Origin: Demequina sp. | GTDB lineage: Bacteria > Actinomycetota > Actinomycetes > Actinomycetales > Demequinaceae | Direction of reading: 5' to 3' | Assembly (NCBI GenBank): GCA_024707205.1 | Contig: JANQAD010000001.1 | Coordinates: forward strand, 1,577,979-1,641,978 | DNA length: 64,000 bases | Shown: piece after piece, positions 1,661-63,352 of the stretch | Numbering within the stretch: position 1 is the first letter of the stretch | How the letters are laid out: every line of letters starts with the position of its first letter | Notes under the pieces: generated by a model | What the model was told of the DNA's origin: nothing | Seen by the model: only the letters and a program-made list of their open reading frames with translations | Database searches by the model: none | Position numbers and translations under genes: made by a program

Positions 1661-2527
1661 CTAGATGACCGGCGGACGTCCCAGCTTGGTCATGGTCCAC
1701 ACCGCGCGCCACGACAGCGGCCGACGCCGTCCCGCCTCCTCGCGGAAACCCTCCTTGGCGCCAGCGCACCAGGCGGTCAAATCAGACGGGTGGCGAGCGT
1801 GCCGTACAACGGTCACCGCGGACCAGTTGGCCACGTAGCCGATGCCGAGCAGCAGCGGGAGGTTGCGCCGCGCGAGCCACACGCGGTTGCGCGAGTCGTG
1901 GCGAAGGTGATCCGGGTGCCGGTCGCGGGACGTGAGCGGGTGTTCGGCCGCGAGGCTCGCGTCGTAGGCGACGCGGAAGCCTGCGTCCCATGCCCGCCAC
2001 GCGAGTTCTATGCCCTCGTGGGCGTACCGAAAGCGACCCGCCCACCCGTCGGTGGCCGCGAGCGCCGACCGCCGCACCGCGACCGCGCCCTCGACCACCG
2101 TGACCACAGGTGATGAGCGCTCGGGGTTCTTGTCGGCGAGCCGGGGGACCCAGCGTCGGGCCGTGACGCCGTTCGCGGACCGAATGCGGATCTGCACCAC
2201 GCCGAGCCCTGGGTCGGCGGCGAACTCCCTCCCAAGCGCTGCGAGCGTCTTCGGTTCGGGGAGGGTCGCGTCGTCGTCGAGGAAGAACAGGAGATCCGCC
2301 GTCGCCGCTGCGAAGCCTCTGTTGCGGCCGCCGGGCGCCCCTACGTTCTCGCTCACCGCGACCCCGATGACCCCCGTGGGGAGATTGGCTGGCTCCCAGC
2401 CGTTTCCCACCACGATCACCTCGAGATCCGCGTCCTGCTGGGCCATGACGGAAGCGAGCGCACGGCTCAGGGCCTCCGGTCGATCGCCCTGAGTGACGAT
2501 CACCACCGACCACGCGGGGAACGTCAC
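1661..2527 (-). CDS. Family 2 glycosyltransferase
   Basis: A 288-residue GT-A enzyme. It opens with the nucleotide-binding strand WSVVIVTQGDRPEAL; GAPGGRNRG and FFLDDDATL (the metal-binding acidic motif) follow near residues 65-90, then an acceptor region with HEGIELAWRAW. Such enzymes transfer a sugar from a nucleotide sugar to an envelope polymer or lipid. No strong membrane anchor is obvious, though a short hydrophobic stretch occurs near residues 225-240. It starts with GTG three bases after the TagD-like gene and is third in an operon with CDP-alcohol phosphotransferase and cytidylyltransferase genes. This suggests a role in a glycerol-phosphate or similar envelope polymer. Donor and acceptor are not predictable. 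Confidence 0.85.
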   Translation of the reverse strand: MTFPAWSVVIVTQGDRPEALSRALASVMAQQDADLEVIVVGNGWEPANLPTGVIGVAVSENVGAPGGRNRGFAAATADLLFFLDDDATLPEPKTLAALGREFAADPGLGVVQIRIRSANGVTARRWVPRLADKNPERSSPVVTVVEGAVAVRRSALAATDGWAGRFRYAHEGIELAWRAWDAGFRVAYDASLAAEHPLTSRDRHPDHLRHDSRNRVWLARRNLPLLLGIGYVANWSAVTVVRHARHPSDLTAWCAGAKEGFREEAGRRRPLSWRAVWTMTKLGRPPVI

Positions 2528-2530
2528 AGG

Positions 2531-2932
2531 CTAGCCCTCGTCATCCCTGATAGCCGTGATGATCTCGGTCGTGGAGACGCCCTCAGTGCGCGGCAGGTAC
2601 ACGACCCGCGCCACGTCCGCGAGGTCATCGAACGCACCCTGCCAGTCGGCGCCCATCACCAGGATGTCCGCCCCGTGCTCGACCACGTAGTCCCGCTTCG
2701 CCTCGAGCGATTCCTCGAGGAACACTTCGTCCACGCACGCGAGGCTCGCGACGATCGCGAGCCGGTGGTCCTGCGGGTAGACGGGCAGGCGGCCCTTCTT
2801 CCTTTCGTTGAGTTCGTCGGAGGACACACCCACGGTCAGATGGTCGCCGAGGTCGTGGGCTCGCAGCAGGAGGTTCACGTGGCCGATGTGCAGCACGTCG
2901 AAGGTGCCGAACGTGATGACCTTGCGGGTCAT
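2531..2932 (-). CDS. tagD: Glycerol-3-phosphate cytidylyltransferase-like enzyme
   Basis: A 133-residue nucleotidyltransferase of the TagD/cytidylyltransferase family, which makes CDP-glycerol (or another CDP-alcohol) from CTP. The HxGH signature is at residues 15-18 (HIGH) and the second signature RTEGVSTTE at 115-123, both essential for CTP binding in the family. The length matches TagD (about 130). Its ATG overlaps the stop of the CDP-alcohol phosphotransferase gene (ATGA), implying translational coupling, and the glycosyltransferase follows after three bases. The neighbouring enzyme would use the CDP-alcohol product. Glycerol-3-phosphate as substrate is a family-based inference. Confidence 0.87.
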   Translation of the reverse strand: MTRKVITFGTFDVLHIGHVNLLLRAHDLGDHLTVGVSSDELNERKKGRLPVYPQDHRLAIVASLACVDEVFLEESLEAKRDYVVEHGADILVMGADWQGAFDDLADVARVVYLPRTEGVSTTEIITAIRDDEG

Positions 2933-3729
2933 GGCGCGAGCCGCGGCGAGGTGAGCGCGGAGGCAATGTGGCCAACGATGACGATCGGCGTCACGATGAG
3001 CAGTGCGACCATGAGCCAGGCAAGCGCCGACGGCACCCAGATCGCGACGATGAAGCCCACGAGATACAGGTGCGCCTGCTCCACCGAGTGGTACACCCGG
3101 TGAATAGGCACCCGTCTCGCCGCGGCACGCAGCGTGCGCACCGCGCCGGGTGCGGGCTCCCGTGACGCCGCGGAGTCCGGCAGCCGCGGCAGTCCTGCGG
3201 ACGCGCGCGCAACCGCGACGGCGTCGTTCACCGACTTGTTGATGAGGACCAGCACCGCGAGCGCAAGACCTGCGGCTGCCCAGCGTCCAGCATCCTCCGG
3301 GTTGGCGAGCGCAAGGCCGACGCCGAGGCAGGCGGGCAGGGAAGCCTCCGTCACCGAGTGGGCAAGGTGGTCAAGGAACACGCCGCGCGCAGACGCCGTC
3401 CTGCGCCACCGCGCGACCTCGCCATCGGCGGCGTCGAGGAGCATCTGGAGGTGTGCGAACAGCACGGCAAGGAGCGCGCCCCACACCGAACCGAGCAGCA
3501 GACTCGCGGAGGCGGCAAGGCCAGTGGCGATCACCAAGGTCGTGACAGCGTCGGCGCTCATGCCCCATCGAATGGCGAGTGCGGCGACGTGCGAGGAGTA
3601 GCGTCGCCACAGGAGGTCGGCGCTCCAATGCTCAGCGTTGGCGCGCTCGCGAATCGCGGCGGGTTGGCCGTCGCGCCTCACCTCCGCCGCGGCTACGCGA
3701 AAACGGCCACGCCGCGGTGCCTGGTCCAT
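2929..3729 (-). CDS. CDP-alcohol phosphatidyltransferase family membrane protein
   Basis: A 266-residue integral membrane enzyme with several hydrophobic segments (about 60-100, 125-160, 225-255). The family signature D-x2-D-G-x2-A-R-x8-G-x3-D-x3-D appears as D99, D102, G103, A106, R107, G116 and D120, but the last Asp, usually the catalytic base, is His124. I believe some actinobacterial subfamilies carry this change, so it is not necessarily inactivating. A minus-strand TACGAT (3743-3738) eight bases before the ATG is a plausible -10. First gene of an operon with tagD-like and GT2 genes; it probably joins an alcohol-phosphate head group to a lipid or sugar. Substrate unknown. Confidence 0.82.
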   Translation of the reverse strand: MDQAPRRGRFRVAAAEVRRDGQPAAIRERANAEHWSADLLWRRYSSHVAALAIRWGMSADAVTTLVIATGLAASASLLLGSVWGALLAVLFAHLQMLLDAADGEVARWRRTASARGVFLDHLAHSVTEASLPACLGVGLALANPEDAGRWAAAGLALAVLVLINKSVNDAVAVARASAGLPRLPDSAASREPAPGAVRTLRAAARRVPIHRVYHSVEQAHLYLVGFIVAIWVPSALAWLMVALLIVTPIVIVGHIASALTSPRLAP

Positions 3730-3824
3730 GCCGCCTCATCGTAGCCCGCAATCGAAGGGCACGATTCGGTCACGTCGCGCCGAGCCTGGCTCCCTACGCT
3801 GTTTGCGTCTGCCACGATGGACCC

Positions 3825-4351
3825 ATGGCCGATGAGCAGCTCCGCATCGACGTCGTGACCCCCGCGGACGCGGGGAGCTCCTCACGGTGCGCCGCGCCGC
3901 TTTCGTCACCGAGGCGCAGATCTTCAACGACCCCAACATTCCCGCGCTCACGCAGACGCTGGAAGAGCTCGTGGTGGACCTGCAGTCCGGCGACGTCGTC
4001 ACGCTTGGCGCGTGGAGCGGGCCTCGCCTGGTTGGCTCGATCCGCGTGGGCATCGAGGACGACAAGGCGACCATTGGGCGCCTTGCGGTGGTCCCGGACC
4101 TGCAGGGCAAGGGAATCGGCACGCAACTGCTGTTCGCCGTGCTCGGCTACCTCCCGGAGAACACCAAAGAGGTGTGGGTCTTCACGGGGCAGAACTCCAA
4201 GCACAACATCGCGCTGTACAACAGGGCGGGGTACGAGCACCAGTTTGACCAGGTGGCGGGCGATCTCACGTATGCCTACCTGCGCAAGGTTCTCGAGGCG
4301 GGCGCCATCGTCGACGACGACGATGACGTCGCGGTGCGCGGCGACAACTAG
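3825..4351 (+). CDS. GNAT-family acetyltransferase (apparent 1-base frame break)
   Basis: About 175 residues when read across a break near 3873, where a run of four G needs one more base. Before the break the frame gives MADEQLRIDVVTPADAG; after it LLTVRRAAFVTEAQ and the acetyl-CoA site LQGKGIGTQLL (the Q/RxxGxG/A motif), then ALYNRAGYE typical of the GNAT C-terminus. It transfers an acyl group from acyl-CoA to an amine of unknown identity. Its stop overlaps that of the convergent methyltransferase gene by CTAG. I treat the break as a sequencing indel, because both halves keep coding character and align to one domain. Confidence 0.75.
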
Positions 4352-5271
4352 CCGCTGGTCGTGTCCTTCAGCACTGCCATGGTGCTGACGCCGGCATCAA
4401 CGCGGCGGAACTCCGGCCAGCGCGCAGTCCATCCCTCGAGGATCTCCTGCTCCGTATCGCGGTGAATGTCATCGAGGGCGACGACCGCCCCCGGCCGCAA
4501 GGCCCCTCGAAGCACCTCGAGTGCCGGTCGGCGCGCGAAGGGTCCAGTCGCCTCGGGAGGCCCGTCCACGAGCAGGAGGTCGATGCCGGCAAGGCCCTCA
4601 AGGGCGGTCTCGTCGTACCACGGGGCATCCTCGCCGCGGTCCGCAAGTGGGGCCAAGCGGACCTCGGCGACGTCCGTCAACGAGTGCAGGGCAAGCTGCC
4701 TGCGGGTGGCCTCCGCGTAGTCGCTGTCGTGGTCGATGGACACGATGCGTCCGCCGGTCTGCTTCAGCTGCTGCGCGATCCAAACGGTGGAGGTGCCGGA
4801 GCCGAGCTCGACCACAAACTGGGGTCGCTCGCGCCGGATGAGGTCCCTGAGCTCGCCGAGAGCACGAGCGTCAAGGGCGAAGCCTCCCGACGGGGGCAGC
4901 AGCGGGTGATCGCCTGACCGAGGAAGCACCTGCAGGAGGGCCTCAACCTGCTTCGTCTGCTCGCGGAGGTCTTTCGTGATCTCCCAACGGAGCTGTTCCT
5001 TGGTTCGCGACACGTGCCTCGACAGCGCCTCGATCTCACGCTTGAGAGACTCGCCGGACGCCTGCTTGCGTTCCACCCGCGCGAGCCGGCTGCTCGCGCC
5101 GCGGGCGGTGTCCCACGCGCCGAACGCCAGCAGGGAGGCGAGGCCAGCGAGCACGGCCGTCGCGCCCATCGCCAACTCGAGGTTCTCGGCCGCCGCCGCC
5201 CCAACGGCCACCGCCACGATGATCGCCGTAGCGCCCCAAACCGCTGCCTTGCGGCGACCGAACCGAGCCAC
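4348..5271 (-). CDS. Membrane-anchored class I SAM-dependent methyltransferase
   Basis: About 307 residues starting at GTG, with GGGAG upstream. Two hydrophobic segments (about 13-30 and 35-50) are followed by a charged, helical, probably coiled-coil region (65-115), then a Rossmann methyltransferase domain. Motif I is [11 protein letters not shown], acidic motif II IVSIDHD, and a later acidic strand [10 protein letters not shown] and [10 protein letters not shown] are typical of O-methyltransferase-type folds. The protein is likely tethered to the inner face of the membrane. The substrate is unknown. It ends in a CTAG overlap with the GNAT gene and begins 211 bases from glyA, divergently. 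Confidence 0.75.
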
Positions 5272-5352
5272 GGCATCTCCCTCATTGGATACTCAGTGCA
5301 CTGGTCGCACACCCTACCGCTTGGCCCCAGTTGCGTTGGTAGACTTGGCGCA

Positions 5353-5424
5353 GTCGCGACTGGCGCACGTGGTGTCACCACGAGGGAGCGGCAACCTTAG
5401 GACTGTTGGTCGTTCGCCTGGGCC
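5353..5424 (+). ncRNA. ZTP (pfl) riboswitch upstream of glyA
   Basis: The leader carries the hallmark conserved blocks of the pfl motif: CGACTGGCG at 5357-5365, a short hairpin GTGGT-GTC-ACCAC (5369-5381), GAGGGAGCGGC, and then after a variable linker the block TCGCCTGGGC (5414-5423). ZTP riboswitches bind ZMP/ZTP, which accumulate when 10-formyl-tetrahydrofolate is low, and switch on folate genes. This agrees with the downstream glyA-folD pair. The expression platform between 5425 and 5475 is GC-rich without a U tract, so control of translation or of a non-canonical terminator is more likely than a classical intrinsic terminator. Confidence 0.85.
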
Positions 5425-5482
5425 AAGGTCACCGGAAACCGCCGGCGGCCGCGTGCCGCCCGCCCAACAGGTAAGGAACGCC

Positions 5483-6774
5483 ATGAGCACCGATTCCAGC
5501 GCCACCGCAGCCGTCATGAACGCGACGCTGCAGGACTTTGACCCAGACATCGCCCAGGTTCTCGATCGTGAGCTGAACCGTCAGCGCACGTACCTCGAGA
5601 TGATCGCCTCCGAGAACTTTGTGCCGCGCTCCGTGCTGCAGGCGCAGGGCTCCGTCCTCACCAACAAGTACGCGGAGGGCTACCCGGGCCGCCGCTACTA
5701 CGGCGGCTGCGAGGAGGTCGACGTAGCGGAGTCGATCGCCATCGAGCGGGCGAAGGCCCTGTTCGGCGCCGCGTATGCGAACGTCCAGCCCCACCCGGTG
5801 CCACCGCCAATGCGGCTGTGCTGCACGCGCTCATCAACCCCGGCGACAAGATCATGGGCCTGTCTCTCGCCCACGGCGGCCACCTGACGCACGGAATGAA
5901 GCTCAACTTCTCGGGCAAGCTCTACGAGGTCGCCGCGTACGGCCTCGACGAGGCCACGTACCGCGTGGAGATGGAGACGGTTCGCAAGATCGCGCTCGAG
6001 GAGCGCCCGGACGTCATCATCGCGGGCTGGTCGGCCTACCCCCGCCACCTCGACTTCGCCGCCTTCCGCTCCATCGCAGACGAGGTCGGCGCCAAGCTGT
6101 GGACGGACATGGCGCACTTCGCGGGACTTGTCGCCGCTGGCCTGCACCCCTCGCCGGTTCCCCACTCCGACGTGGTCTCAACCACCGTCCACAAGACGCT
6201 CGGCGGCCCGCGCTCCGGCCTCATCGTGTCGCGCGACGAGGAATACGCGAAGAAGCTCAACTCCGCCGTCTTCCCCGGCCAGCAGGGCGGCCCGCTCATG
6301 CACGTCATCGCCGCCAAGGCGGTGGCGCTCAAGGCCGCCGCTCAGCCCGAGTTCAAGGAGCGCATGGAGCGCGTCCTCGAGGGTGCCCGCATCCTCGCCG
6401 ATCGCCTCACGGCGCCCGACGCTGTGGCCGCGGGCGTCAACGTGGTCACGGGCGGCACGGACGTCCACCTGGTGCTGGCCGACCTCCGCAACTCGCCGCT
6501 CTCCGGCCAGGACGCAGAGGACCTGCTGCACGAGGTCGGCATCACCGTGAACCGCAACGCGGTGCCTTTCGACCCCCGCCCCCCGATGGTCACCTCCGGC
6601 CTGCGCATCGGCACGCCCGCGTTGGCTTCGCGCGGCTTCGGTGCCGAGGAGTTCACCGAGGTCGCCGACGTCATCGCCACGGCCCTCAAGGGCGGTGCCG
6701 ACGTGGACGCTCTGCGTGCGCGTGTGGCCAAGCTGGCCGACGACTTCCCGCTCTACGACGGCCTGCAGCAGTAG
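5483..6774 (+). CDS. glyA: Serine hydroxymethyltransferase (apparent 1-base frame break)
   Basis: A PLP enzyme converting serine and tetrahydrofolate to glycine and 5,10-methylene-tetrahydrofolate. Read across a missing base near 5795 it is about 430 residues, the normal size. The first part gives [17 protein letters not shown] and GCEEVDVAE; the frame breaks inside the conserved PHSGA motif (read as PHP) and resumes at [14 protein letters not shown]. The PLP-lysine motif is [14 protein letters not shown]. The start ATG has AAGGAA seven bases upstream. The gene is essential in most bacteria, so a sequencing indel is more likely than a pseudogene. folD follows nine bases after the stop, under the same riboswitch. 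Confidence 0.94.
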
Positions 6775-6783: not shown

Positions 6784-7665
6784 ATGGTGGCGCAGGTATT
6801 GGATGGCCGGGCCACAGCGTCGGCCATCAAGGGCGAACTGACGGCCCGGGTGGCGGCGCTGCGCGAGCGCGGTGTGGTGCCCGGCCTTGGCACGCTGCTG
6901 GTGGGCTCCGATCCGGGGTCTATCTGGTACGTCAACGGCAAGCACGCGGACTGCGCGGAGGTTGGCATCGCGTCGATTCGCGAGGATCTGCCGGAGACGG
7001 CCACGCAGGAGGAGATCGAGGCGGCGATTGCGCGGCTGAACGCCAACCCGGAGTGCACGGGGTTCATCGTGCAGCTGCCGTTGCCGCAAGGGATCGACAC
7101 CAACAGGGTGCTCGAGCTCGTTGACCCGGACAAGGACGCCGACGGCCTGCACCCCACCAACCTCGGCCGACTGGTGCTGCGCATGAGCGAGGAGATCACC
7201 TCGTCGCTGCCGTGCACGCCCAAGGGCATCATCGAGCTCATCGAGCGGCACGGCGTCTCGCTGCGCGGCAAGGAGGTCGTGGTGATCGGCCGCGGTACGA
7301 CGGTGGGGCGCTCCATCGGGCTGCTCCTCACGCGCCGCGCGGTCAACGCGACCGTGACGCTGTGCCATACCGGGACCGCGGACCTCGCCTCACACACGCG
7401 CGCTGCGGACGTGATCGTGGCCGCCGCCGGCGTGCCCGGGCTCGTGACTGGGGACATGGTCAAGGACGGCGCAGTGCTCATCGACGTGGGCGTCTCCCGC
7501 ATCACCGACCCGGAGACCGGCAAGTCTCGCGTAGCTGGGGACATCGCGCCGGAGGCTCTCGAGAAGGCGTCCTGGTACTCGCCCAATCCCGGCGGCGTTG
7601 GGCCCATGACGAGGGCGATGCTGCTGTCGAACGTGGTGGAGTCAGCCGAGCGCTCACTGACGTAA
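6784..7665 (+). CDS. folD: Bifunctional methylenetetrahydrofolate dehydrogenase / cyclohydrolase
   Basis: A 293-residue cytoplasmic enzyme that interconverts 5,10-methylene-, methenyl- and 10-formyl-tetrahydrofolate with NADP. The catalytic lysine motif is YVNGKHADC, and [10 protein letters not shown] and DKDADGLHP line the folate site. The NADP-binding loop is [11 protein letters not shown], and [12 protein letters not shown] is near the C-terminus. Length is typical (280-300). It is nine bases downstream of glyA, in one ZTP-controlled operon: GlyA makes methylene-THF and FolD turns it into formyl-THF, the compound whose shortage the riboswitch senses. Confidence 0.96.
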
Positions 7666-10370: not shown

Positions 10371-10388
10371 GCGGGCCCGACGCTGGGG

Positions 10389-11513
10389 CTAGCTCCGTAC
10401 GGGCGTCACGCCGAGGCTGCGGCCGGCGAGGCCACGCTGCCTGCTCGCGAGCGACCTGGCGATGCGGCGCAACTCGACGGCCGCTGGGCTCTCGGGGTCC
10501 CGGATCACGGCCGGCACGCCCTCGTCGCCGGCCTCGCGCGCAGCGATGTCGAGGGGGATCTGACCCAGGAGCGGCACCGGTGTTCCCAGGGTCGCGCTGA
10601 GGCGCTCGGAGACGCGCTCGCCGCCGCCCTCGCCGAACAGGTGCAGGCGAGTGCCGTCCGGCTGATCCAGCCACGCCATGTTCTCGATCACGCCAACAAC
10701 GTTCTGGGAGGTCTGCGTGGCGATCGCGCCCGCGCGCTCCGCGACCCCCGAGGCCGCGGCCTGCGGCGTGGTCACGACGACGATCTCCGCGTGCGGAAGC
10801 AGTTGCGCCACCGAGATCGCAATGTCGCCGGTACCAGGGGGAAGGTCCAGCAGCAGGATGTCGAGGTCCCCCCAGAACACGTCCGCGAGGAACTGCTCCA
10901 CGGCGCGGTGCAGCATCGGCCCGCGCCAGACCACCGGCTGTCCCTCCGGCACGAACATGCCGATCGAGACGGCCTTCACCTCGTGGGCGATGGGCGGCAG
11001 CAGCATGTCGTCGATGCGCGTGGGCTGGCCCTTCACGCCGAGCATCCCAGGGATGGAGAAGCCAAAGATGTCCGCGTCCAGCACGCCCACCTTGAGCCCG
11101 TCCGCGGCCATCGCCGCCGCCAGGTTCGCGGTGACGGTTGACTTGCCAACGCCCCCCTTGCCCGACGCTATGGCATAGACCCGCGTCAGGTTTCCTGGTT
11201 GCGTGAAGGCGATGACCGGATCCGGCTTGCCGCCGCGCAGCTTGGAGCGCAGCCCGAGGCGCTGCTCCTCGCTCATGACTCCCAGCTCGATGCGCACGGA
11301 CTCGACGCCGTCTGCGCGCAGCGCCGCATTCTCCACGTCCGTGGTGATGCGCTCGCGCATCGGGCAGCCCTGGGTGGTCAGGTCAATGCCGATGATCGCC
11401 GTTGCGCCGTCGATGTCGACTGAACGCACCATGCCGATCTCCGTGATGGGGCGACGAATCTCCGGGTCTATGACCTTGGACAGCTCGTCGCGCACGAGAT
11501 CGGCTGTTGGCAT
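10389..11513 (-). CDS. mrp: Mrp/NBP35-type iron-sulfur carrier P-loop ATPase
   Basis: A 374-residue protein with an N-terminal DUF59/MIP18 domain (about 5-85, including TTQGCPMRER) and a P-loop domain. The deviant Walker A is GKGGVGKS at 118-125, and Walker B-like segments are VGVLDADIFG and LLLDLPPGTGD. Family members carry or transfer Fe-S clusters in the cytoplasm. The CxxC pair near the C-terminus of many Mrp proteins is replaced by WLDQPDGTRLHLFG, as I recall for actinobacterial members. One copy of the dispersed CCGACGCT motif lies inside the Walker A codons (11162-11169), and another lies just past the stop (10377-10384). Confidence 0.92.
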   Translation of the reverse strand: MPTADLVRDELSKVIDPEIRRPITEIGMVRSVDIDGATAIIGIDLTTQGCPMRERITTDVENAALRADGVESVRIELGVMSEEQRLGLRSKLRGGKPDPVIAFTQPGNLTRVYAIASGKGGVGKSTVTANLAAAMAADGLKVGVLDADIFGFSIPGMLGVKGQPTRIDDMLLPPIAHEVKAVSIGMFVPEGQPVVWRGPMLHRAVEQFLADVFWGDLDILLLDLPPGTGDIAISVAQLLPHAEIVVVTTPQAAASGVAERAGAIATQTSQNVVGVIENMAWLDQPDGTRLHLFGEGGGERVSERLSATLGTPVPLLGQIPLDIAAREAGDEGVPAVIRDPESPAAVELRRIARSLASRQRGLAGRSLGVTPVRS

Positions 11514-11637: not shown

Positions 11638-12222
11638 GTGACGGACAGCCCTGAGGCAGCAGGCGCACCCGCCGAGACCGTTCCCCCTGCGGAGGCGAGC
11701 GTCGAGGCACAACCCACCCAAGCGTCGGACCTGGGCGCCGCCGTCGAAGGCGACGCGGCCTTCGACCGCCCCACAGCTCCTCTGCCGCCATCGAACCTTG
11801 CCGTTGGCCTCGTGGCCGGAGTTGGGCTGGGTCTTGTCGCCGCCATGATCTACGCGGCGGTGGCGATCTTCGGCGATCGTGAGTTCCTCGCGCTCGGGCT
11901 GCTGATCGGCTTCGCGGTGGCGTTCGGCTTCCACCGCTTTGGCCACACTCGCGGCATCGTGCCCGGCATCATCGCGGCGGTGGTCGCGCTCGTGCTCTAC
12001 TTCCTGGCGATCTACGTCGAGGGGGCGGGCGCTATCGCCAGGGAGAATGGGGTCGGATTCATGGACGCACTGCGCTTCGTCATCGAGAACAACGCCGAGT
12101 TCCTCAAGTTCTACTTCTCCGACGCGCTCTCTTACGTGTTCCTCATCGTGAGCGTTGGCGCGGCGTTCTTCTACGCCTACGACGCGAAGTCCCAGAGGTT
12201 CGATCGCGCCCACGGGCGCTAG
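11638..12222 (+). CDS. Hypothetical membrane protein with acidic Ala/Pro-rich N-terminus
   Basis: About 194 residues beginning at GTG behind AAAGGAG. The first 55 residues are rich in Ala, Pro and Glu, then four hydrophobic segments follow (about 57-80, 85-102, 108-128, 163-181). The tail is short and basic. No enzyme motif was recognised. It is convergent with the DUF1003 gene, four bases from that stop. It could be a small envelope or accessory protein; function unknown. Confidence 0.68.
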   Translation: MTDSPEAAGAPAETVPPAEASVEAQPTQASDLGAAVEGDAAFDRPTAPLPPSNLAVGLVAGVGLGLVAAMIYAAVAIFGDREFLALGLLIGFAVAFGFHRFGHTRGIVPGIIAAVVALVLYFLAIYVEGAGAIARENGVGFMDALRFVIENNAEFLKFYFSDALSYVFLIVSVGAAFFYAYDAKSQRFDRAHGR

Positions 12223-15706: not shown

Positions 15707-17104
15707 ATGCGCACCACTGCAGATCAGCTCGCGGCCGTCCTCGATCACTGGCAGTCGGGCACGGGCCCGCTGTACCAGCAGCTCGCAGGAGCCATCGTGT
15801 CCCTTGCCGAGTCCGGCTCCCTCGAGTACGGCACGCGCCTGCCGAGCGAGCGCTCGCTCGCCGACTGCCTGCACCTGTCCCGCAACACCGTCACCGCCGC
15901 GTACCAGCAGCTTCGCGACGAGGAATGGCTCGACGTGCGCCCGGGCGCCGCGCCGACGCTGGGGTCGCGTGCGCGCGGCATCGAGGGCTTGAGCGCGCAG
16001 GACCGCTTTGCCAAGATCCTGCACGCCGGACCCGGCCCCATCGTCGGACTGTCGGGAGCGTGTCCGCAGCCGGCGCCCATAGTCATGGACGCACTCCGCA
16101 ACCCCGCGGCAGACCTCGACTCTATGGTGCTGAACGGCAACGGCTACGCATCGCTCGGGGATCCCGAGCTCATCGCCGCGATCATGGACCTGCTGCGCCG
16201 GGACGGCATCAACGCGCAGCCAAACGAGATAGTCGTCACGGCGGGCGGCCAGCAGGCGGTGTGGCTCGCGGTCACGGCGCTCGCCGGGCCGTCGTCGCCT
16301 GTGGCGGTCGAGGCCGTCACGTACCCGGGAGTCTTCGACGCGATCAGCGCGTCCGGCTCGCGGACCCTCGGCCTGCCGATGGGACCGGACGGACTGGACA
16401 CCGTAGCGTCGGCCAAACTGCTGCGCGCTGCGCGGCCCGAGGTGCTCTACATGAGCACCTTCCAGAACCCCACGGGCACCGCACTGGAGCCGGAAGACGC
16501 GCTGCGCCTCATCGCCGCCGCGGACGAGTGCGGCACCACGATCATCGACGACCGGATCATGGCCGACCTCCCTCTCGACGGTCGCAAGCGCCCTCCGCTC
16601 GCGGCGCTGCGGCCAGACTCGTGCATCATCACGATCGGCGGCCTCTCGAAGACCTTCTGGGGCGGGCTACGCATTGGCTGGCTGCACACCAACCCGACGC
16701 TCGCCGAGCGACTGCGCCACCGCAAGGCCGCGATGGACTTAGGGAGCCCGTCGTTCTTCCAGCACCTCGCGACGCGTTTCATCCGTGACCACTACGACTC
16801 GGTGGTCGCGTGGCGCACCGAGCAGCTGCGCGCCTCGCTCGACGCGACGGTCGCGGCCCTCGCCGAGCACGCGCCCACGTGGGAGTACTGCCTGCCCGCT
16901 GGCGGCCCGTCGCTGTGGGTCAAGGTTCCCGGCGTGAACGAGGATCGCTTCGCGGACCGAGCGGCAGCTGCCGGGGCGCCGGTGGCGCCGGGGTCTGCGT
17001 TCGAGGTGCTTCCGGGTGCGGGTGCCGGGCGGTTCCGACTCCCGTACTACCTGCCGCCAGAGGACATGCGGTTGGGCGTCAAGATCCTGGCGGCGGCGGC
17101 TTAG
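15707..17104 (+). CDS. MocR-type regulator (GntR winged helix fused to aminotransferase fold)
   Basis: A 465-residue protein. The N-terminal GntR-type DNA-binding domain (about 15-85) includes YGTRLPSERSLADCLHLSRNTV, best seen at LPSERSLADCLHLSRNTVT. A linker leads to a class I aminotransferase domain with the PLP lysine in GGLSKTFWGGLRIGW and the substrate pocket STFQNPTGTA. MocR proteins bind PLP and control nearby genes of vitamin B6 or amine metabolism. The divergent PLP decarboxylase is the natural target. Repeated GTGCCAG sites in the spacer support direct control and self-control. The ATG is only six bases beyond a -10-like sequence. Confidence 0.9.
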   Translation: MRTTADQLAAVLDHWQSGTGPLYQQLAGAIVSLAESGSLEYGTRLPSERSLADCLHLSRNTVTAAYQQLRDEEWLDVRPGAAPTLGSRARGIEGLSAQDRFAKILHAGPGPIVGLSGACPQPAPIVMDALRNPAADLDSMVLNGNGYASLGDPELIAAIMDLLRRDGINAQPNEIVVTAGGQQAVWLAVTALAGPSSPVAVEAVTYPGVFDAISASGSRTLGLPMGPDGLDTVASAKLLRAARPEVLYMSTFQNPTGTALEPEDALRLIAAADECGTTIIDDRIMADLPLDGRKRPPLAALRPDSCIITIGGLSKTFWGGLRIGWLHTNPTLAERLRHRKAAMDLGSPSFFQHLATRFIRDHYDSVVAWRTEQLRASLDATVAALAEHAPTWEYCLPAGGPSLWVKVPGVNEDRFADRAAAAGAPVAPGSAFEVLPGAGAGRFRLPYYLPPEDMRLGVKILAAAA

Positions 17105-17140
17105 GTCGTGGGGGCTATGCCGGCCCGACGCTGGTTTGGC

Positions 17141-33433: not shown

Positions 33434-33480
33434 CGCGGGGCTGTGGACAGGGCGACCTTGTGTCGGCGGGGGCTGACACA

Positions 33481-43209: not shown

Positions 43210-43261
43210 CGAATGTGATGTGTCGGGACATCGTTGACAGATGTCTCGGGGCATCGTTGAC

Positions 43262-54146: not shown

Positions 54147-57100
54147 CGCTCATCTCCAAGCCGCAGCATCTCGGCGGGCTTGATGCGCCGCAGCATCAGG
54201 CTGACGATGACGACGGACACCGCGAGGACCACCGCGACCTCGAGCGCGAGCAGTCCGACGGCGTCCCACGGGATCGCCACGACGACGGCTGGGAGCGGGG
54301 GCTTTCCGTCGGGTCCAACCGACACCAGCGGGGCTACCAGGTACGACAGCGCGATGCCGAGGCCCACACCGAACAGCAGGCCGAGGAACGACAGCAGCGC
54401 GTTCTCGGTGGCGACGATCCGCAGCAACTGCGCCCGCAACACGCCGATGGCGCGCATCTGCGCGAGCTCGATCTCCCTCGCGCGCACGGTCACGATCGCG
54501 TGGACGGCGAAGCCGAGAGCGGCGAGCACGACGGCGGCGCCGGTAACGAGCCACAGCGCGGCGATGATCGCGACGCGCAGCGGATCCGTCTTGAGTTCCG
54601 CCGCGAGTCCGGCCTGCGTGGTCACGGTCGCGCCCTCCGGCGCGTCCGCGATATACGCCGCGGGGTCCGTGTCGCCCAAGTCCGTCCACCACTCGCTCGG
54701 CGTGATCACGTTGCCTCCCGACTGGATCACCGCCACCTGGAGGTCCGCGATGTTGGCGACGATCGCGGCCTTGCCGAGCGTGTCGCCCGCGAGCGCCGGA
54801 ACGCGATCGGCGATGTACGCGGACACGCGCGTGTTCTCCACCTCGAACGTGACATCGGTGTCCGGCTCGAGGTTCGAGTCGTTGAGCGCCGTGCCGTTCG
54901 CGACGACCCGCACGGGGGTCGCGCGCTCCGCGGCGGTCAGCACGAGCCCAACCGGCGCCCGCACCACGGAGCTCGACGTCGTGATGACGCGCATGTGAAT
55001 CTGGTCGCCGTCGGGCTGGAGCGTGTCCACGCCGACCCCGTTGTTGCTCGCCGTCCAGTCGAGCTGCGCCGGGACGTCGAGCGCCGTCGAGTCCTCGACG
55101 CTCGGGACGCCCGGAACGGGCACCACGAGCGTGGGCGTCACGGCGGAGAGGTTGTCGATGGAGACCACGAACGCGAGCGGCTGGGTGTCGTCGATGACGG
55201 CTCCCTCGCCCCCGTCGAGCGAAATCCACGTGGCCTGCACGGCAACGAGGTACATCGGCTCGGAGTAGTTATCAAGATCCGCCGATGTGGCGACGGTGCC
55301 CGCGAGGTGGTGCTCCTCGCCGTCGAGCTTGATCTGGCCCATGGGGATGGTCTGGTAGTCGCCGTGGTCGTTGCGGATCACAGCGCGCAGCACGAGCTGC
55401 ACGTCGCCGACGTTCTGTGAGGTCCGCGCGACCACGTCCATGGTCAGCTGCTGCGGCTTGCCCGGGATCTCGATCGGGTCGGTCTCCGCGGGGGCGTCGC
55501 CGCCCAGCGTCGAGGGCACGCGCGCTCCTGCGATCTCGTTGAGCCGGCCAACGCCGTACGTCTTGAGGCCCGCGTTGTCCGTGGCCACGAGCGTGACCGC
55601 CGCGCCCTGGAAGTCGTCTCGCCGGAATCCCTCTGGCGTCTGGCCCAGTTTCGCCGGTTCGTTGACTACGGCCGACGCTGTGGCCGGGTCGTCGCCGATC
55701 TGCACTTGGGAGCGCTCGCCGAGCCACGGCCCGTCAACATGGGTCACGATCGCGTCCGGCGGGTGGCGGTACAGCGCCTGGTCGTCCTGGGATTGGTGCC
55801 AGGTGCCCAGGAAGGTGACGGCGAAGGTGCCGATCGACACCGCGAGGGTGAGCAGCAGGATGGCAGAGATCGCTCTCGCCGAGCGGCGGCCGACCTCCCA
55901 CGCGGCGAGCGGCATCACGGCCTTGCGACCCCTCGCGGCCACCGCCTCGAGAACCTTTGAGGCAGGCGGGATGAGCCTCACGGCCACGAGCGCACCCGCG
56001 AGCAGCGCGAGCGCCGGGCCCGCGGCGAGCAGCGGGTCCACCTTCGCCACGCCGCCGCCGGCAAGAACGGGGGAGCGATAGTTCTTGAGCTGCCAGTACG
56101 CGAGCGCTGCCAAGGCGAGAACCGCGATGTCGAGCCCAGAGCGCTGGAAAGCCGCGCGTCGGCCGGGCCGTGAGCGGGCCTGTTCCGCGTCGACGAATGT
56201 GCCTTGGCGCCGCATGAGCGGGGCGACGAGCACGGTGATCAGGATCACGCCGACGATGCCGGCGACCACCCAGGTGCGCGGTGGAATACCAGGGTCCACG
56301 TCCATGCCGGCGTCCTGCATAACCGGTGTCTGCGCGAGGCCGAGATAGGTGAGGCGGGCGAGAGGGGCGGCGACGAGGGTCGTGATCGCGCCCAGCACCA
56401 CGGCCTCGATGAGTCCCAAGCGGAACAGCTGCCTTCCGGAGCCGCCACGCGCGACCATCAGGTGCTGCTCGGCGTAGCGGCGCTCGGCCATGAGCCGCGC
56501 CGTCTGGCTAAGAGCTGCGATGGCGAGCACCAGGAGGAGCAGGCCCGTCACGAGGACGCTCGACCGGGTGACCGCGAGCGAGCCGGCGACCCCGCCAAGC
56601 GTGGTGTCGAGGTTCGATGAGACAGCCACAGAGTCCGCCGCGTCCCCGATGTTGCGAACCGTCTTGGTCTCGAGGCCGTCGGTCCGTGCGAGCACCTCGC
56701 TTACCTCGCTGAGCGAGGTCGCAGAGAAGTCGGGCGTGTAGGTGACGGCGACCTGGTCGAGCGGCGCCGTCTCGACGTCTTCGTGGGTCGTGAAGAGCGG
56801 TCCGTACCCGTCCGTGGTCACGCGGCCTGCGGTGAACGGGACGATCGTGCTCGGGTTGTGGGTGGCGCCGAGGTAGCGGTCGAACTGCCACGCCGGGTCC
56901 TCGATGTCGGCGACCGTGTAGGTGCCGACGATGAGGTAGTCGTGCAGGTCCTCTGACGTCGAGTAGGGGGCGAGGGTGACGGTGTCGCCCACCTTCGCGT
57001 CGATGTCATACAGCAGCGAGGGCGGGACGAGCACCTGGACCGGACCGCCGTTGGCGGGCTCGGGCGCCCTTCCCGTCCGAATGGTGACGAGGTCCTCAAG

Positions 57101-58125: not shown

Positions 58126-59574
58126 GTGGCCACCCTGCGAGAGACCGCCGAACGATACGGGCCCCTCACAGATGAGGAGGCCGAGTGGCTTGCGTCGCTG
58201 GTCGCGGACTGGCAGATCGTCGCCGACCTTTCCTTCGCTGACCTCATCCTGTGGCGCTCCGTGGACGAGGGCTTCGTCGCCGTAGCGCAGTGCCGTCCCT
58301 CAACTGGACCCACCGTCCACCTTGACGATGTCGTGGGCTCAACCGCAGCGTCGGGCCGTATCGCCCACCTGCAGCGGGCGCTCGACGAGGGCGGAATCGT
58401 CGCCTCGCGGGAGCCGCGCTGGGACGAGACGTACGCCGTCAGGGAGGACGCGCTGCCCGTGGTGATGAACGGGCGCCCCATCGCGGTACTGACGCGAGAG
58501 GTGTCGCAGGCCGTGTCGCGCTCGTCGAGCAGGCTCGAGCTCAACTACAAGGGCGCCGCGGACGACATCCTGCGGATGATCACGCGCGGCGAGTACCCCA
58601 TGCATACCTCGGTCACGGGGCCGCGGCGGGGCGCGCCGCGCGTGGGCGACGGCGTGCTGCGGCTCGACGCCTCGGGCCACGTGGCGTATGCCTCGCCGAA
58701 CGCGCTGTCCTGCTTCCACCGGCTCGGCGTGCACGGCTCGCTCATGAACCGATCGCTGCCGCAGGTGACGAGCGAACTCGTCACGGACAAGGGACTCGTC
58801 AACGAGACGCTCGCCATGGTGGTGATGGGACGCGCGGCGTGGCGCACCGACCTCGAGGCGAACGGCGCCTGCCTGTCCCTGAGGGCGCTGCCCGTGCTGG
58901 ACCGCGGGGCCCGCGTTGGCGCGCTGCTGCTATGCCGCGACGTGACGGAGCTGCGCCGCCGCGAGCGCGAGCTCATCACCAAGGACGCGACGATTCGCGA
59001 GATCCACCACCGCGTCAAGAACAACCTGCAGACGGTCGCGGCGCTGCTGAGGCTGCAGTCGCGGCGCGTGGAGGCCCCGGAGGCGAAGGAGGCGCTCGCG
59101 GAGGCGATGCGCCGCGTCTCCACCATCGCCCTGGTCCACGAGACGCTCTCGGGGACGCTCGATGAGCTCGTCAACTTCGATGACCTCGCGGCGCGGGCGA
59201 TGCGGATGGCCGCGGAGGTCGCCTCGCCTGGCGTGCAGGTGCAGATTGTGCGTGAGGGCGACTTTGGGCTGATCCCCGCCCAATACGCGTCAAGCCTCGC
59301 TCTCGTCATGACCGAGCTCATCACCAACGCCGTTGAGCACGGCTTCGAGGGTCGCGAGCGAGGCACCATCACGGTGACCGCTCGGCGCGACGGCGACCAG
59401 GTGCACGTCACGATCGCCGACGACGGGGTGGGGCTCACGCACGAGCCGACGGGCCTTGGCTCGTCGATTGTGCGCACGCTCGTGGAGAACGAGCTTGGCG
59501 GTCAGATCACGTGGGCGGGAGCGCCGACGGGGTCGACAGTGGAGCTGTCGGCGCACGTCAGCGACGGGCGCTAG
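58126..59574 (+). CDS. pdtaS: PdtaS-like sensor histidine kinase
   Basis: 482 residues. The N-terminal part (about 10-150) resembles the GAF-like H_kinase_N domain and the middle a PAS domain (about 165-285). The kinase core is HisKA_2, with the phospho-His region EIHHRVKNNLQTVAALLRLQ (H294/H295), N box LITNAVEHGF and G1 box IADDGVGLTHE. The domain order, RVKNNLQ signature and length match mycobacterial PdtaS, whose partner PdtaR is an antitermination regulator. The convergent neighbour is a WhiB1-like gene, as in Mycobacterium (Rv3220c-Rv3219). No response regulator lies beside it. It senses soluble signals in the cytosol. Confidence 0.88.
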   Translation: MATLRETAERYGPLTDEEAEWLASLVADWQIVADLSFADLILWRSVDEGFVAVAQCRPSTGPTVHLDDVVGSTAASGRIAHLQRALDEGGIVASREPRWDETYAVREDALPVVMNGRPIAVLTREVSQAVSRSSSRLELNYKGAADDILRMITRGEYPMHTSVTGPRRGAPRVGDGVLRLDASGHVAYASPNALSCFHRLGVHGSLMNRSLPQVTSELVTDKGLVNETLAMVVMGRAAWRTDLEANGACLSLRALPVLDRGARVGALLLCRDVTELRRRERELITKDATIREIHHRVKNNLQTVAALLRLQSRRVEAPEAKEALAEAMRRVSTIALVHETLSGTLDELVNFDDLAARAMRMAAEVASPGVQVQIVREGDFGLIPAQYASSLALVMTELITNAVEHGFEGRERGTITVTARRDGDQVHVTIADDGVGLTHEPTGLGSSIVRTLVENELGGQITWAGAPTGSTVELSAHVSDGR

Positions 59575-59865: not shown

Positions 59866-59869
59866 GGGG

Positions 59870-60013: not shown

Positions 60014-60026
60014 AGTCGCACTCGGT

Positions 60027-60473
60027 ATGTTTAACGCTGTGCCCGGCCAATTTGCTCCCCGATCGGCCGCGCGGACGGTTGCCGCGGCCGTCGTGGCCGT
60101 TGAGTGCGGTGTCATCGCGCTTGGGGCGCTCGCGTACGTGGCGCTCGGCATAGTCGGTGACGACTCCGGCACGCAGGCTTCCCTCGCGCTAGCGGGGGTC
60201 GGCGCGCTTGCCGCGGCGGGCCTGTTCGTTCTGGCGAGAGGGCTGTGGCATGCCCGACGCTGGGCCGTCTCTCCCTCCATCACCTGGCAGCTTCTCCAAG
60301 GGTTTGTTGGCGCGTACCTCATCACGGCGGGCCAGCCGGCGTACGGTGCGGCCGCGCTTGGGGTCGCGGTGATTGGCCTCGTTGCGCTCATGGCCCTCGC
60401 CCGCGGTGCGGGCTCAGCCGGGCAGGACCTGGACGGCGAGCGCGGCGCCGTCGACGATCGCGACGCACCGTAG
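60027..60473 (+). CDS. Hypothetical small membrane protein
   Basis: About 148 residues from ATG 60027 (or GTG 60039). Four hydrophobic segments are visible: about 17-43, 50-68, 84-100 and 105-125, with WHARRWAVSPSITWQLLQGF between. No motif identifies it. The last 60 bases overlap the predicted C-terminus of the FtsK-like gene on the other strand. No Shine-Dalgarno is seen. It is divergent from whiB1 across a region with repeated TCTCACA elements, so the two may share control. The dispersed motif occurs in the codons for ARRW (60254). Confidence 0.7.
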   Translation: MFNAVPGQFAPRSAARTVAAAVVAVECGVIALGALAYVALGIVGDDSGTQASLALAGVGALAAAGLFVLARGLWHARRWAVSPSITWQLLQGFVGAYLITAGQPAYGAAALGVAVIGLVALMALARGAGSAGQDLDGERGAVDDRDAP

Positions 60474-63290
60474 CCGCACCGGCGCGGGCTCGATGAGCCC
60501 AATCGCGCGGTCCCCTACTCACCTCCCGCAGGGTCTTCGCCGTGGGCTTGACGCACACGACGGTCCGGGGGTCGGCTGACCGGGCATGCCGAGCGCGAAC
60601 CCGGTGTCTGCGATCAGGGGCTCGTGCCCGCTCGCCATCGCCACCCTGCGGGCCACGATGTCGCGCTCGTCGCCGGGCGGGCCGATCACCGCGGCCGGCG
60701 CCTGAGGCAACACGATGGGGCGCGCCTGATCACCCCCGATCCCCAGCGCCGCCTGCGGGAGCGGTCCCGCGACTGATTCAGGCAGTTCCTCTACCGGCGC
60801 GGTTGGCGTGAAGGGAGCGGGCACCGAGAGCTGGGTCTCCGCCCATCCGTCTGCCCTGCGTACGCGAGCGCGACCGGCCGCCCGGGGGATCCCGCGAAGC
60901 TCGCTCGGCACGCCCCATGCGGCGTCGTCCTCAACCGGCAGTCCGGTGAGGATTGCCACGAGCCCCGCGCCCGCGACGAGGCGGTGGTTGGCCCACGCGG
61001 GCGGCACGACGAGGGCGGCGGCCCCGCGGCGCAGACACGCGAGGAGCAGGTCGATTGCCTCCGGCTCCGCCGTCGACGCGGCCGCGAGGGTCCGTTCTGC
61101 GTCGTCGAGTAGTACGAGCGCACGTGGCTGATCGGCCGCGAGGGCGAGCGTCCTGGCCGCACGGCGCGGGTCCGGCGGAACCCACATGGGTGTGAAGCCG
61201 CCCTCCGCCGCACGCGCGGCCACGGCGAGCAGCACGGCCGTTCGCCCGGAACGGGGTGGGCCGGCGATGACGAGCGGGCCGGCCGCCGGGTCCCACGTCA
61301 CCGACTCGCGAGCGCGCCGCTCGGGGAGATCCGCCACGCCGAGGACGAAGCCCTCGCCGGCCGAGGGCGCTAGGCGCTCCGGGAGTGGTGGCAGCCACAG
61401 GGCGGCCGTCTTGGCCGCTCCGGGAGACCCGGAGTGACGCCGCGCCGCGGCATCGACCAACTGCAGCCCCCGTGACGCCCCGGCCTCGGCCAGCCGCACG
61501 GAGGGCGGCGGTTCCGCTGAAGGCAGCGCAACCTGAACTGAGTCGGGAGGGCCAGCGCCGCGCGATAGCACCGCTCGCCCTGGCAGCGAGGGAGGGATCG
61601 CGGCGGCCACAGGTGAACCGACGAGGTCGCGGGACTCCGCCTCGGTGGCAGTCCTCAGGGCGAGGGTCGTCGAGATATTCGCCCGCACGTCCGCGCTCAC
61701 CGCGCCCGCCGGTCGCTGAGTCGCGAGCACCAGGTGGATCCCGAGCGAGCGTCCCTGGGCCGCGAGCCGGGTGAGATGCGGCATGAAGTCCCTGTCGATC
61801 GCCGCCATTTCCTGAAACTCGTCGATCACCACCACGAGCCGGGGCGGTGGCGAGGCCCACTCCTCATAGGAGCGCACGCCCGCACCTGCGGCGGCCCGCT
61901 TGCGGTCGCCGAGCTCGGCCGCGAGCGCGAGCAGGCAACGCCGCGCGAGGTGCGGCTCGAGGTCGGTCAGCACGGACGTCACGTGAGGCAGCGCGGCGCA
62001 CGGGCCAAGGCCCGCCCCGCCCTTGAAGTCGATGAGGGCGAACGTGACGGCCGCGGGGGAGTGGTCGTGAGCGAGCGAGCCGATGATGGTCCGCAGCGCC
62101 TCCGACTTTCCTGAGCCGGTGGTGCCCGCGACGAGGATGTGCGGGCCGTCGGCGACGAGGTCGAGGCTCACGGGCCCGTGCTCGCCAACGCCGAGCCGCG
62201 CCCTGAGCCCTCCGGGCGGAGGCGCGGGAAGCTCCGCCCACGTCACGGTGGCGGGGATCGCGGCGTCGGCCGCGGAGCTCGCGATGCGTCGGGCGGCGGC
62301 GTCGGCGAGTTCGGCGCTCACCAAGGGCAGCGGAGCGGACACGGTGGCGCCATGGGCGGTCATCACGAGCCGCCCGGCCCGTTCCGCGAACACCACCTCG
62401 GCCCACGAGGGCGGCTCCTCGCCGTCGGCGATCCACCGCACCTCCCGCTGCGAGTCGGGCAGGTGCGCCATCCACTCCTCCCATTGGGGTGAGCCGCGAG
62501 GCGGACGGCCCGTCGCGAGCGTGACCGCCCGCATGAGCCCGCGCGGCCCGATCACGCACGCGGGGCCGTCCGGGAGCGGACCAAGCGCGAGCGTGCCCGT
62601 GACGTCGAGCAAGGGCGGGACCGGCGCACGACGCCTTCCGCGCAGCAGCGACACGCCCACGGCAACCCCGGGCACCGCGAGCGCGACGAGCGCGAGCGGC
62701 CAGTGACCCGTCGCGACCGCGAAGATGGCCATCGATGCCCCGCCCGTGAGCCACGTGGCCGCTCCGCGCAGCGCGGGCAGGCGGGTCTCGGTTGCCGCCT
62801 CGCCCGCGAGTGGGTCGCGCAGCACGATCGCGGTGGCGCCGAGCTCAAGAAGCTTCCCCGGCGCGATGGCCGCGCGGCCGCGAACGCGCGCCCCGCCCAC
62901 CCTGATGCCGTTGCGCGAGCCGCCGTCGTGCACCCGCGAGCCCGCGAGGCGCGCATGATCCTCACTGACCGTGACGTCCGTGAGCCGCAGGGTCGCCTGC
63001 TCGCCCCGCCCGATGCTCAGCCCCTCGCTCACCGTCGCGATCGCCCCCGCGTCCGGCCCGCCAACCACGGCGAGGTGGGCGCCCGGCCGGGGACGAGCGT
63101 CGGGCCCAGGGGCGCGCGTGAGGCGAGCGAACGCGACAAGGGGAGCGAGGCCCGCCGCGTGGTCCGGCATCAGCCGGGCGGGGCCGCACCAGGGCCGCTC
63201 GGGCAACTCGACCCCGACTGCGCGCGCGAAGGCGACGACCTCGCTCACGGGCGCGCCGTGCCTCACCTCAAGCTCGAGCCCCTCCGCCAT
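60414..63290 (-). CDS. FHA-domain FtsK/SpoIIIE-type ATPase (two apparent frame breaks near the 3' end)
   Basis: About 958 residues. An FHA domain (about 80-145; SIGRGEQATLRLTDVTVSED then VHDGGSRNGIRVGG) precedes two TM segments (about 170-205). The FtsK/EccC ATPase follows, with Walker A GTTGSGKSE (near 389-396) and Walker B VVVIDEFQEM (near 485-492). A second P-loop domain GPPRSGRTAV (near 676) has Arg for the usual Lys. The uncorrected frame stops at 60519; with one base added near 60568 and one removed near 60513 it continues TVVCVKPTAKTLREV to RCVAIVDGAALAVQVLPG and ends at 60414. Type VII-type EccC proteins look like this, but no ESX partner is in the window. Confidence 0.8.
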
Positions 63291-63352
63291 GATCCGCACC
63301 CGCCAAGCATGGCGAGCGCGGCCCGACGCTGGGGCGGCCCTGTGGATAACGG

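Follow-up and report, generated by a model that had tools for sequence, protein, structure and literature searches.

A densely dispersed word in Demequina genomes resembles a dialect of a DNA uptake sequence

The window and its copies of the motif

We analysed a window of 64,000 bases (positions 1577979-1641978 of a genome assembled as one contig of 2,538,242 bases; window G+C content, 69.6%) from a strain of Demequina (Demequinaceae, Micrococcales, Actinomycetota), in which a short word, CCGACGCT, is dispersed on both strands. The genus name is based on one protein, a helicase encoded in the window, whose best matches in named genomes were found at 78% in Demequina iriomotensis and at 76% in an assembly of Demequina lutea, followed by Cellulosimicrobium, Oerskovia, Sanguibacter, and others at no more than 70%, in a search made among close relatives. 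We identified 40 exact copies of the word (18 forward and 22 reverse), spanning positions 2152 to 63330; the first-pass annotation of this DNA had counted at least 37 (17 and 20).

Copies of CCGACGCT in the window (coordinates, strand, location)
2152-2159, minus, in a glycosyltransferase gene (1661-2527)
3547-3554, minus, coding
6416-6423, plus, in glyA (serine hydroxymethyltransferase)
6816-6823, minus, coding
10377-10384, plus, non-coding
11162-11169, plus, in a NUBPL/ParA-type ATPase gene (10389-11513)
11721-11728, minus, coding
15953-15960, plus, in a gene with GntR and aminotransferase domains (15707-17104)
16405-16412, minus, in the same gene (15707-17104)
16694-16701, plus, in the same gene (15707-17104)
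17125-17132, plus, non-coding
18346-18353, minus, coding
19205-19212, minus, in an M24 peptidase gene
19462-19469, minus, in the M24 peptidase gene
19792-19799, plus, in the M24 peptidase gene, orientation opposite to its other two copies
20233-20240, minus, coding state unsure, as two coding masks disagree
21215-21222, plus, in a PHP-domain gene
21590-21597, minus, in a DEAD-box helicase gene
23239-23246, plus, coding
23710-23717, minus, non-coding
25743-25750, plus, in an AdnB-like helicase-nuclease gene
26890-26897, minus, in the AdnB-like helicase-nuclease gene
27907-27914, minus, in the AdnB-like helicase-nuclease gene
30710-30717, minus, in an AdnA-like helicase-nuclease gene
34742-34749, plus, inside a UvrD-like open reading frame (ORF; 33373-35676, with a D. 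iriomotensis homologue), scored non-coding
36267-36274, minus, coding
37322-37329, minus, in a zincin-like peptidase gene
38543-38550, plus, in a PDZ-domain gene
41257-41264, minus, inside an ORF of the PRK00068 family (39416-42232)
42951-42958, minus, coding
43658-43665, minus, in a transposase gene (43289-44452, rve domain)
44961-44968, plus, in an MMPL-family gene
48018-48025, plus, in a DUF2252 gene
48745-48752, plus, in the DUF2252 gene
53493-53500, minus, coding
55672-55679, plus, coding
58347-58354, minus, in a PdtaS-like histidine kinase gene
60254-60261, plus, coding
63096-63103, minus, in a gene with FHA and FtsK/EccC-like stretches
63323-63330, plus, non-coding

Five or six of these copies score as non-coding, one of which (34742) lies inside the homologue-backed ORF, so that the earlier figure of at least four intergenic copies was about right. 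The copy that had been placed in an insertion sequence is that at 43658, within the transposase gene.

Abundance and shape of the motif

Under a third-order Markov model of the window, 6.2 copies of CCGACGCT are expected (the first-pass annotation had estimated roughly five from base composition), and the word ranks first among all 8-mers (z 13.5). It also ranks first in a 464-kb sample that consists of the window and 20 stretches of 20 kb across the genome, where 328 copies (approximately one per 1.4 kb) were found against 59.1 expected under a fourth-order model. The longer forms GCCCGACGCT and GGCCCGACGCTG occur 185 and 53 times in the same sample, compared with 5.4 and 0.5 expected. In the whole genome, CCGACGCTG is present in 1,062 copies (528 and 534 on the two strands), or one per 2.4 kb, whereas its reversed word is present in 50 (29 and 21).

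The motif is rigid. In the 464-kb sample, the 9-mer has 210 perfect copies, and the 24 variants carrying a single substitution at positions 1-8 have observed-to-expected ratios between 0.24 and 2.4. Position 9 is less constrained (ratios of 10.1, 2.75, and 2.16 for A, T, and C, respectively). A flank consensus, which the first-pass annotation had proposed extracting, proved somewhat wider than the 8-mer: CCGACGCTG is preceded by G at -2 (87%) and by C or G at -1 (63% and 22%); downstream, G is favoured at +10 and +11, and C at +12. The consensus covers approximately 11 or 12 bases, beyond which the flanks are nearly free. Periodicity in the flanks of the kind seen around the uptake signal sequences (USS) of Haemophilus is at most weak, with a slight preference for T at approximately +16 to +18 and no clear A/T tracts. 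The word is not palindromic (CCGACGCT on one strand and AGCGTCGG on the other). Repeats common to the window and the other sampled stretches were limited to short matches of 79-120 bases with 73-81% identity.

The excess is retained when the encoded proteins are held constant. Shuffling of synonymous codons within genes, a control named in the first-pass annotation, left 34.8 ± 4.9 copies compared with the 247 observed in coding sequence (z 43; 476 genes, 100 shuffles). With stricter coding segments, the corresponding values were 33.8 ± 5.5 and 236 (z 37), and the maximum among 100 shuffles was 48. As had been noted earlier for several reading frames, the coding copies occupy all frames and encode varied peptides, including PDAV (22 copies), SVG (18), PTL (18), AASG (11), and many others. 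The excess is also alike across classes of genes defined by the G+C content at third codon positions (GC3), ranging from 6.5 to 8.1 times expectation.

Placement along the chromosome

The absence of strand bias reported for the window was also seen in the 464-kb sample, in which 168 of the 328 copies are forward. Polarity with respect to replication, assessed in the window's own genome alone, was not found: when any origin was permitted, with the terminus opposite, the best split between replichores was 55%, which was matched by 42% of permutations (p 0.42; 328 copies), and a split larger than approximately 58% would have passed the 95% line. The gaps between copies are slightly more even than random (coefficient of variation, 0.874; simulated 95% range, 0.881-1.074), with 1.7% of simulations giving a value as low, and the longest sampled gap is 5,854 bases.

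Copies are denser in non-coding DNA (1.80 per kb) than in coding DNA (0.58 per kb). These figures are based on scored coding segments, in which some split coding sequence was possibly counted as non-coding. Genes were called by our own script, and split genes in the assembly leave the non-coding set impure. Cruder gene calls, which had lost frame-split genes such as ORF 39416-42232, gave a smaller contrast (1.38 intergenic versus 0.61 coding); by these calls, the spacers that separate divergent genes are the poorest in copies (0.77, versus 1.60-1.69 in other intergenic DNA). In other species, the non-coding and coding densities per kb are 0.81 and 0.35 for pooled species carrying GGACGATGC and 0.61 and 0.41 for pooled species carrying GGCCGATGC, two related words described in the next section, whereas genome G003 is without such a contrast.

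Part of the non-coding copies are arranged in inverted pairs. When one mismatch at most was permitted, an inverted mate was found within 60 bases for 27 of 85 non-coding copies, compared with 10 of 85 for a control word (the unreversed complement); cruder gene calls gave 24 and 9 of 82. No such excess was observed in coding DNA (28 of 243 versus 32 of 243 for the control). Some of the pairs resemble plain hairpins. Inverted pairs of DNA uptake sequences (DUS) outside genes are known, and the title of one cited paper mentions terminators.

Related words in other genomes of the genus

An unbiased k-mer ranking of stretches sampled from same-genus genomes returned the related words GGACGATGC, GGCCGATGC, GCCGACGCT, and GCCCGACGC; it yielded none in G001, G005, G012, G018, and G027, for some of which little sequence had been sampled. 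We refer to the words as dialects, namely A (GGACGATGC), B (GGCCGATGC), and C (CCGACGCTG), which share the core GNCCGACGCTG. Words were counted over 37 genomes of the genus, of which the 36 besides the window's own were placed there by the code of the whole-genome search tool, and over 22 from other families within the order, with reversed words as controls. A dialect was called when its density exceeded twice the highest density among the 22 outside genomes (genome sizes rounded).

GGACGATGC is present in 929-1,700 copies in 13 genomes and in 49-275 in the other 24, compared with 36-203 outside the genus. GGCCGATGC reaches 2,018 copies (72-252 outside). CCGACGCTG, with its 1,062 copies in the window's own genome, occurs 404 times in G003, 363 in G011, 245 in G032, and 207 in G027 (33-236 outside), and GCCGACGCT occurs 622 times in G003, 436 in the own genome, and 353 in G032. 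By these counts, 12 genomes carry A only, 15 carry B only, one (G021) carries both, and three carry C, so that 31 of the 37 exceed the threshold; counting G021 twice, A, B, and C are found in 13, 16, and 3 genomes, respectively. The comparison with related genomes that had been suggested for the window revealed related but different words in sister species. G021 carries two dialects densely (1,294 copies of GGACGATGC and 664 of GGCCGATGC), a state that possibly represents a dialect change in progress. The counts of the dialect words are nearly equal on the two strands, although these totals in other species do not bear on polarity.

Among 245 other genomes of the class, none exceeds approximately 130 copies per Mb of the two words summarised as GGMCGATGC, the top being 300 copies in 2.3 Mb (G220), although many carry them at two to four times the reversed control. 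In the genomes of dialects A and B, one word alone exceeds 180 and reaches approximately 750 per Mb. Synonymous shuffles gave consistent excesses for the local words, with 118 copies of GGACGATGC versus 22.2 in pooled A species (z 28.8), 115 of GGCCGATGC versus 18.6 in pooled B species (z 19.7), 32 of GCCGACGCT versus 4.7 in G003 (z 14.1), and 30 of GCCCGACGC versus 11.4 in G011 (z 6.2).

Exchange of dialects at orthologous sites

Aligned 20-kb neighbourhoods of the pilus genes from eight A and seven B species were compared site by site. Because control words yielded small numbers of aligned sites (0 to 51 when compared with B species), the comparison of A with A was taken as the main control. 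Of 187 A sites facing A species, 94 are identical, 3 carry the dialect-base change, 19 carry another single change, and 71 are more divergent. The 167 A sites that face B species are distributed differently, with 6, 18, 4, and 139 in the same categories. Similarly, B sites facing A include 16 that are the same, 18 with the dialect-base change, 20 with another single change, and 109 more divergent ones (n = 163), whereas those facing B include 32, 0, 17, and 90 (n = 139). Such pairs cannot be treated as independent observations: among the 35 A sites, 15 are matched by a switched copy in one or more B species, and these 15 represent about four homologous places at which one dialect has taken the place of the other. 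The majority of sites are unshared, indicating that turnover is fast.

Pilus and competence genes

The genes for a competence apparatus, which the first-pass annotation had advised looking for, are represented in the own genome by a type IV pilus locus and by homologues of ComEA, ComEC, and DprA. PilB is encoded at 2290504-2291658 (E 1e-141), beside a second ATPase taken as PilT, and the same locus contains PilC, a major-type pilin, further N-methylated or pilin-like proteins, and PilD. ComEA (SLBB and HHH domains) is followed by ComEC. DprA (E 2.6e-63) and ComEA were searched in the own genome alone.

PilB was detected in all 24 same-genus relatives searched (70-79% identity) and, among 14 genomes of other families, in G037 and G040 at 63-68% and in four more at 41-44%. 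Matches to PilT, PilC, pilin, and PilD are present in all 23 same-genus pilus neighbourhoods besides the own. A full single-frame match to ComEC was found in 23 of the 24 same-genus relatives and none in G005, whose genome is 85% complete; because 13 of 14 genomes of other families also contain ComEC, this gene is not genus-specific.

An orphan pilin of 138 amino acids, with two cysteines near the C-terminus, is encoded away from the pilus locus (1465-1881 of sampled stretch L204; genome 1017893-1018306), where its neighbours resemble, by eye, a GNAT acetyltransferase and a VOC-type protein. All 36 same-genus relatives have a match to it, as do 9 of the 22 other genomes, mostly at a weaker level. 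For 6 of the 24 relatives in which the pilus locus had been placed, its closest match was the pilin of that locus, and a likely orthologue outside the pilus locus was seen in one other species (G004). On these slender grounds, we tentatively regard the orphan pilin as a candidate uptake receptor.

Interpretation and alternative explanations

We propose, with a probability of roughly 0.7, that Demequina independently evolved a DNA uptake sequence of which the motif is the local dialect. This reading, which had been raised in the first-pass annotation, fits best because of the high copy number and rigidity of the word, the lack of detectable polarity, the non-coding excess with inverted pairs, the slightly even spacing, the core-sharing dialects, the switching in place, and the presence of pilus and com genes. 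Since we infer the function from genome sequences, the motif is described as working like an uptake sequence and is not filed as a proven member of that class. With somewhat less assurance, we consider that the system probably marks the third time that self-recognising DNA uptake arose independently, here in a Gram-positive actinobacterial genus whose dialects, three or more in number, share a core, have switched repeatedly between sister species, and possibly act as a species barrier.

According to this proposal, a minor pilin on the pilus would bind the local word of free DNA, and the pilus would draw the bound DNA to ComEA and ComEC, after which DprA and RecA would assist the recombination of single strands. 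Because word-bearing DNA would be taken up preferentially, molecular drive would spread the word, a mechanism proposed for Haemophilus. If the receptor changed, a new dialect would arise, and with it a barrier to exchange between species.

Several observations weigh against the uptake proposal. Six of the 37 genomes (G001, G005, G012, G017, G027, and G032) are under the threshold for the three words. Among them, G032 passes with GCCGACGCT (approximately 141 per Mb, versus at most approximately 52 outside the genus), G012 has a small excess of GCCGACGCT under synonymous shuffles (9 versus 1.3), and G001 has no word excess under these shuffles; PilB is present in the four of the six that were searched. 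In coding DNA, the A species carry somewhat more copies of the B word than the shuffles predict (29 versus 15.7, z 4.1). Switching in place to C words was not seen in the aligned neighbourhoods: of 43 A sites facing C, 3 are identical and 1 has a single change, and of 42 B sites facing C, none is identical and 3 have single changes. In addition, according to the accessible part of Mora et al. 2020 (PMC7811141), newly acquired DNA contains few uptake sequences, whereas genes of low GC3, used as a proxy only, are not motif-poor here, and the transposase gene carries a copy.

On a tree of PilB, PilT, and a C-terminal piece of PilC, the three dialects need at least seven changes, compared with a mean of 9.5 for shuffled labels, and 11 of 200 shuffles were as low; the three C species do not stand together. 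This is a quick pilus-gene tree, not a core-genome tree, of 26 rows, 22 of them labelled, in which G000 and G018, one being the window's own genome, have long branches, G021 with its two dialects was labelled A, and G017, which is under the later threshold, was labelled B. By comparison, the dialects of Neisseriaceae and Pasteurellaceae are reported to track phylogeny in the portion of PMC12616744 available to us.

The remaining points on this side concern the genes. In the own genome, comEC, pilC, and mltG are each split over two frames. The glyA gene is similarly split, with serine hydroxymethyltransferase positions 1-93 in ORF 4976-5887 and positions 104-399 in ORF 5818-6774. As no link of glyA or mltG to competence is known, assembly indels are a likelier cause of the four splits than gene loss. 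The pilus-locus pilin matches the Pfam family ComP_DUS below the cut-off (E 2e-4; 22.6 bits versus 27.3), which may reflect general pilin similarity, and the orphan pilin gave no match to this family.

The main rival is a Chi-like hotspot that would regulate an AdnAB helicase-nuclease, with a dialect corresponding to a changed AdnAB reader. The window contains adjacent AdnB-like and AdnA-like genes (25067-31317), each with UvrD helicase and PD-(D/E)XK nuclease domains and together carrying four copies of the motif, although the name AdnAB is inferred. Chi words are likewise short and over-represented. However, they are usually biased in orientation with replication, and no such bias was found in the own genome; three dialects and several changes within one genus are hard to fit to a conserved enzyme; and the excess peaks in non-coding DNA, where some copies form inverted pairs, neither of which a polar signal calls for. 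The Chi-like alternative mentioned in the first-pass annotation, and with it readings of the FtsK type, appears less likely, since no polarity was found (p 0.42) and the word changes between sister species. FtsK-orienting sequences (KOPS) are polar towards the terminus, a polarity that was not found in the own genome.

Even less probable is that the word is bound by a chromosome-organising protein (nucleoid-associated, SMC-related, or of another kind) with a specificity that drifts between species. The slightly even spacing on both strands, with approximately one 8-mer per 1.4 kb, would suit such a protein. However, proteins of this kind usually bind loose sites, whereas the 9-mer is rigid in all but its last position, and a protein with approximately 1,000 sites should not repeatedly change its word within a genus.

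We see a slight chance that a biased process of mutation, repair, or methylation, such as a site created or protected by a methyltransferase, produced the enrichment without uptake. Over-represented words like HIP1 of cyanobacteria lend this idea some plausibility, but the motif is non-palindromic, its consensus extends over approximately 11 or 12 bases, and sister species differ by one base; moreover, restriction words are generally avoided rather than enriched. HIP1 itself is palindromic, and a repeat of that type was rejected because CCGACGCT and AGCGTCGG differ. Finally, chance, base composition, codon usage, a protein motif, or a repeat family can practically be dismissed despite the frequent PDAV, SVG, PTL, and AASG peptides at coding copies, because the excess withstands Markov counts, reversed-word controls, and codon-preserving shuffles, the flanks are nearly free beyond approximately 12 bases, and non-coding DNA is enriched.

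Comparison with known systems

The system resembles the DUS of Neisseriaceae in that a single short word occurs hundreds to thousands of times, on either strand, in that the dialects keep a fixed core and diverge at one or a few bases, and in the presence of genes for a type IV pilus and ComEA/ComEC. Two dialects in one genome are likewise found in both (Simonsiella and, here, G021), as are genomes of the family without a clear word. According to the part of Frye et al. 2013 that was available, eight dialects occur in Neisseriaceae, one genome has two, five genomes have none, and genomes contain 943 to 5,918 DUS, compared with up to approximately 2,000 copies here. The two systems differ in that the word is unrelated and belongs to another phylum of Gram-positive type, that uptake and a ComP-type receptor are putative here, and that the Demequina dialects change several times on the pilus-gene tree.

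The USS of Haemophilus influenzae has, as described in the consulted sections of PMC7811141, a nine-base core, a fairly even spread, and a lower frequency in coding sequence, all of which are paralleled here, and the dialects within Pasteurellaceae (PMC12616744, seen in part) offer a further similarity. In contrast to the Haemophilus USS, the Demequina word is unrelated and, beyond its weak downstream T preference, lacks clear A/T tracts. The same excerpt of Mora et al. 2020 (PMC7811141) attributes strong uptake preferences to two families and states that molecular drive predicts an even spread; in Demequina, the even spread is weak and the scarcity in coding sequence is evident.

With the Chi sites of RecBCD and AddAB, the motif shares a short over-represented word and the presence of a helicase-nuclease pair, but it differs from them in that no replication polarity was found and that it varies between sister species. 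Transformation in Micrococcus luteus, as covered in the available part of PMC6370729, is also actinobacterial and also involves comEA and comEC; that part describes Tad/Flp pili and mentions no uptake sequence, whereas Demequina has a PilB-PilT-PilC-pilin-PilD locus besides other T2SSE genes.

Sequence-specific uptake has been placed in two Gram-negative families, in the passages available of PMC7811141 and PMC5031613. Our literature search, made at the level of titles and abstracts of open-licence papers, found no report of an actinobacterial uptake sequence, which is not proof of absence, and no paper on the five motif words themselves. This agrees with the statement in the first-pass annotation that no such motif was known in this group.

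Other features of the window and the sample

A second dispersed word, GGTTTAGGCA, which is unrelated to the main motif, was found in 13 copies in the 464-kb sample, compared with 0.1 expected. It is located at 33279 (plus strand) and 33424 (minus strand) of the window and also in stretches L066, L067, and L073. Its copies form small clusters, some with steps of approximately 42 bases, and are often followed by CGCATACC or AGTCCTG; the word may represent a small repeat family.

The rve-type transposase gene (43289-44452), with one motif copy inside, adjoins a tRNA-Met gene (43136-43210). A ZTP riboswitch (5346-5430) precedes glyA. The protein encoded at 60519-63737 contains FHA-like and FtsK/EccC-like ATPase stretches that score far under the curated cut-offs of type VII secretion models.

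Implications

Demequina are environmental bacteria; therefore, if the proposed function is correct, the link between uptake codes and mucosal life that has been suggested in the literature needs a second look. Uptake codes would then arise repeatedly and without the need of a Gram-negative outer membrane. The dialect switches within a single genus would serve as natural replicates for finding the receptor and for testing molecular drive, and they would allow one to ask whether a change of dialect helps to start new species. In addition, the motif may offer a practical route to the transformation of Demequina.

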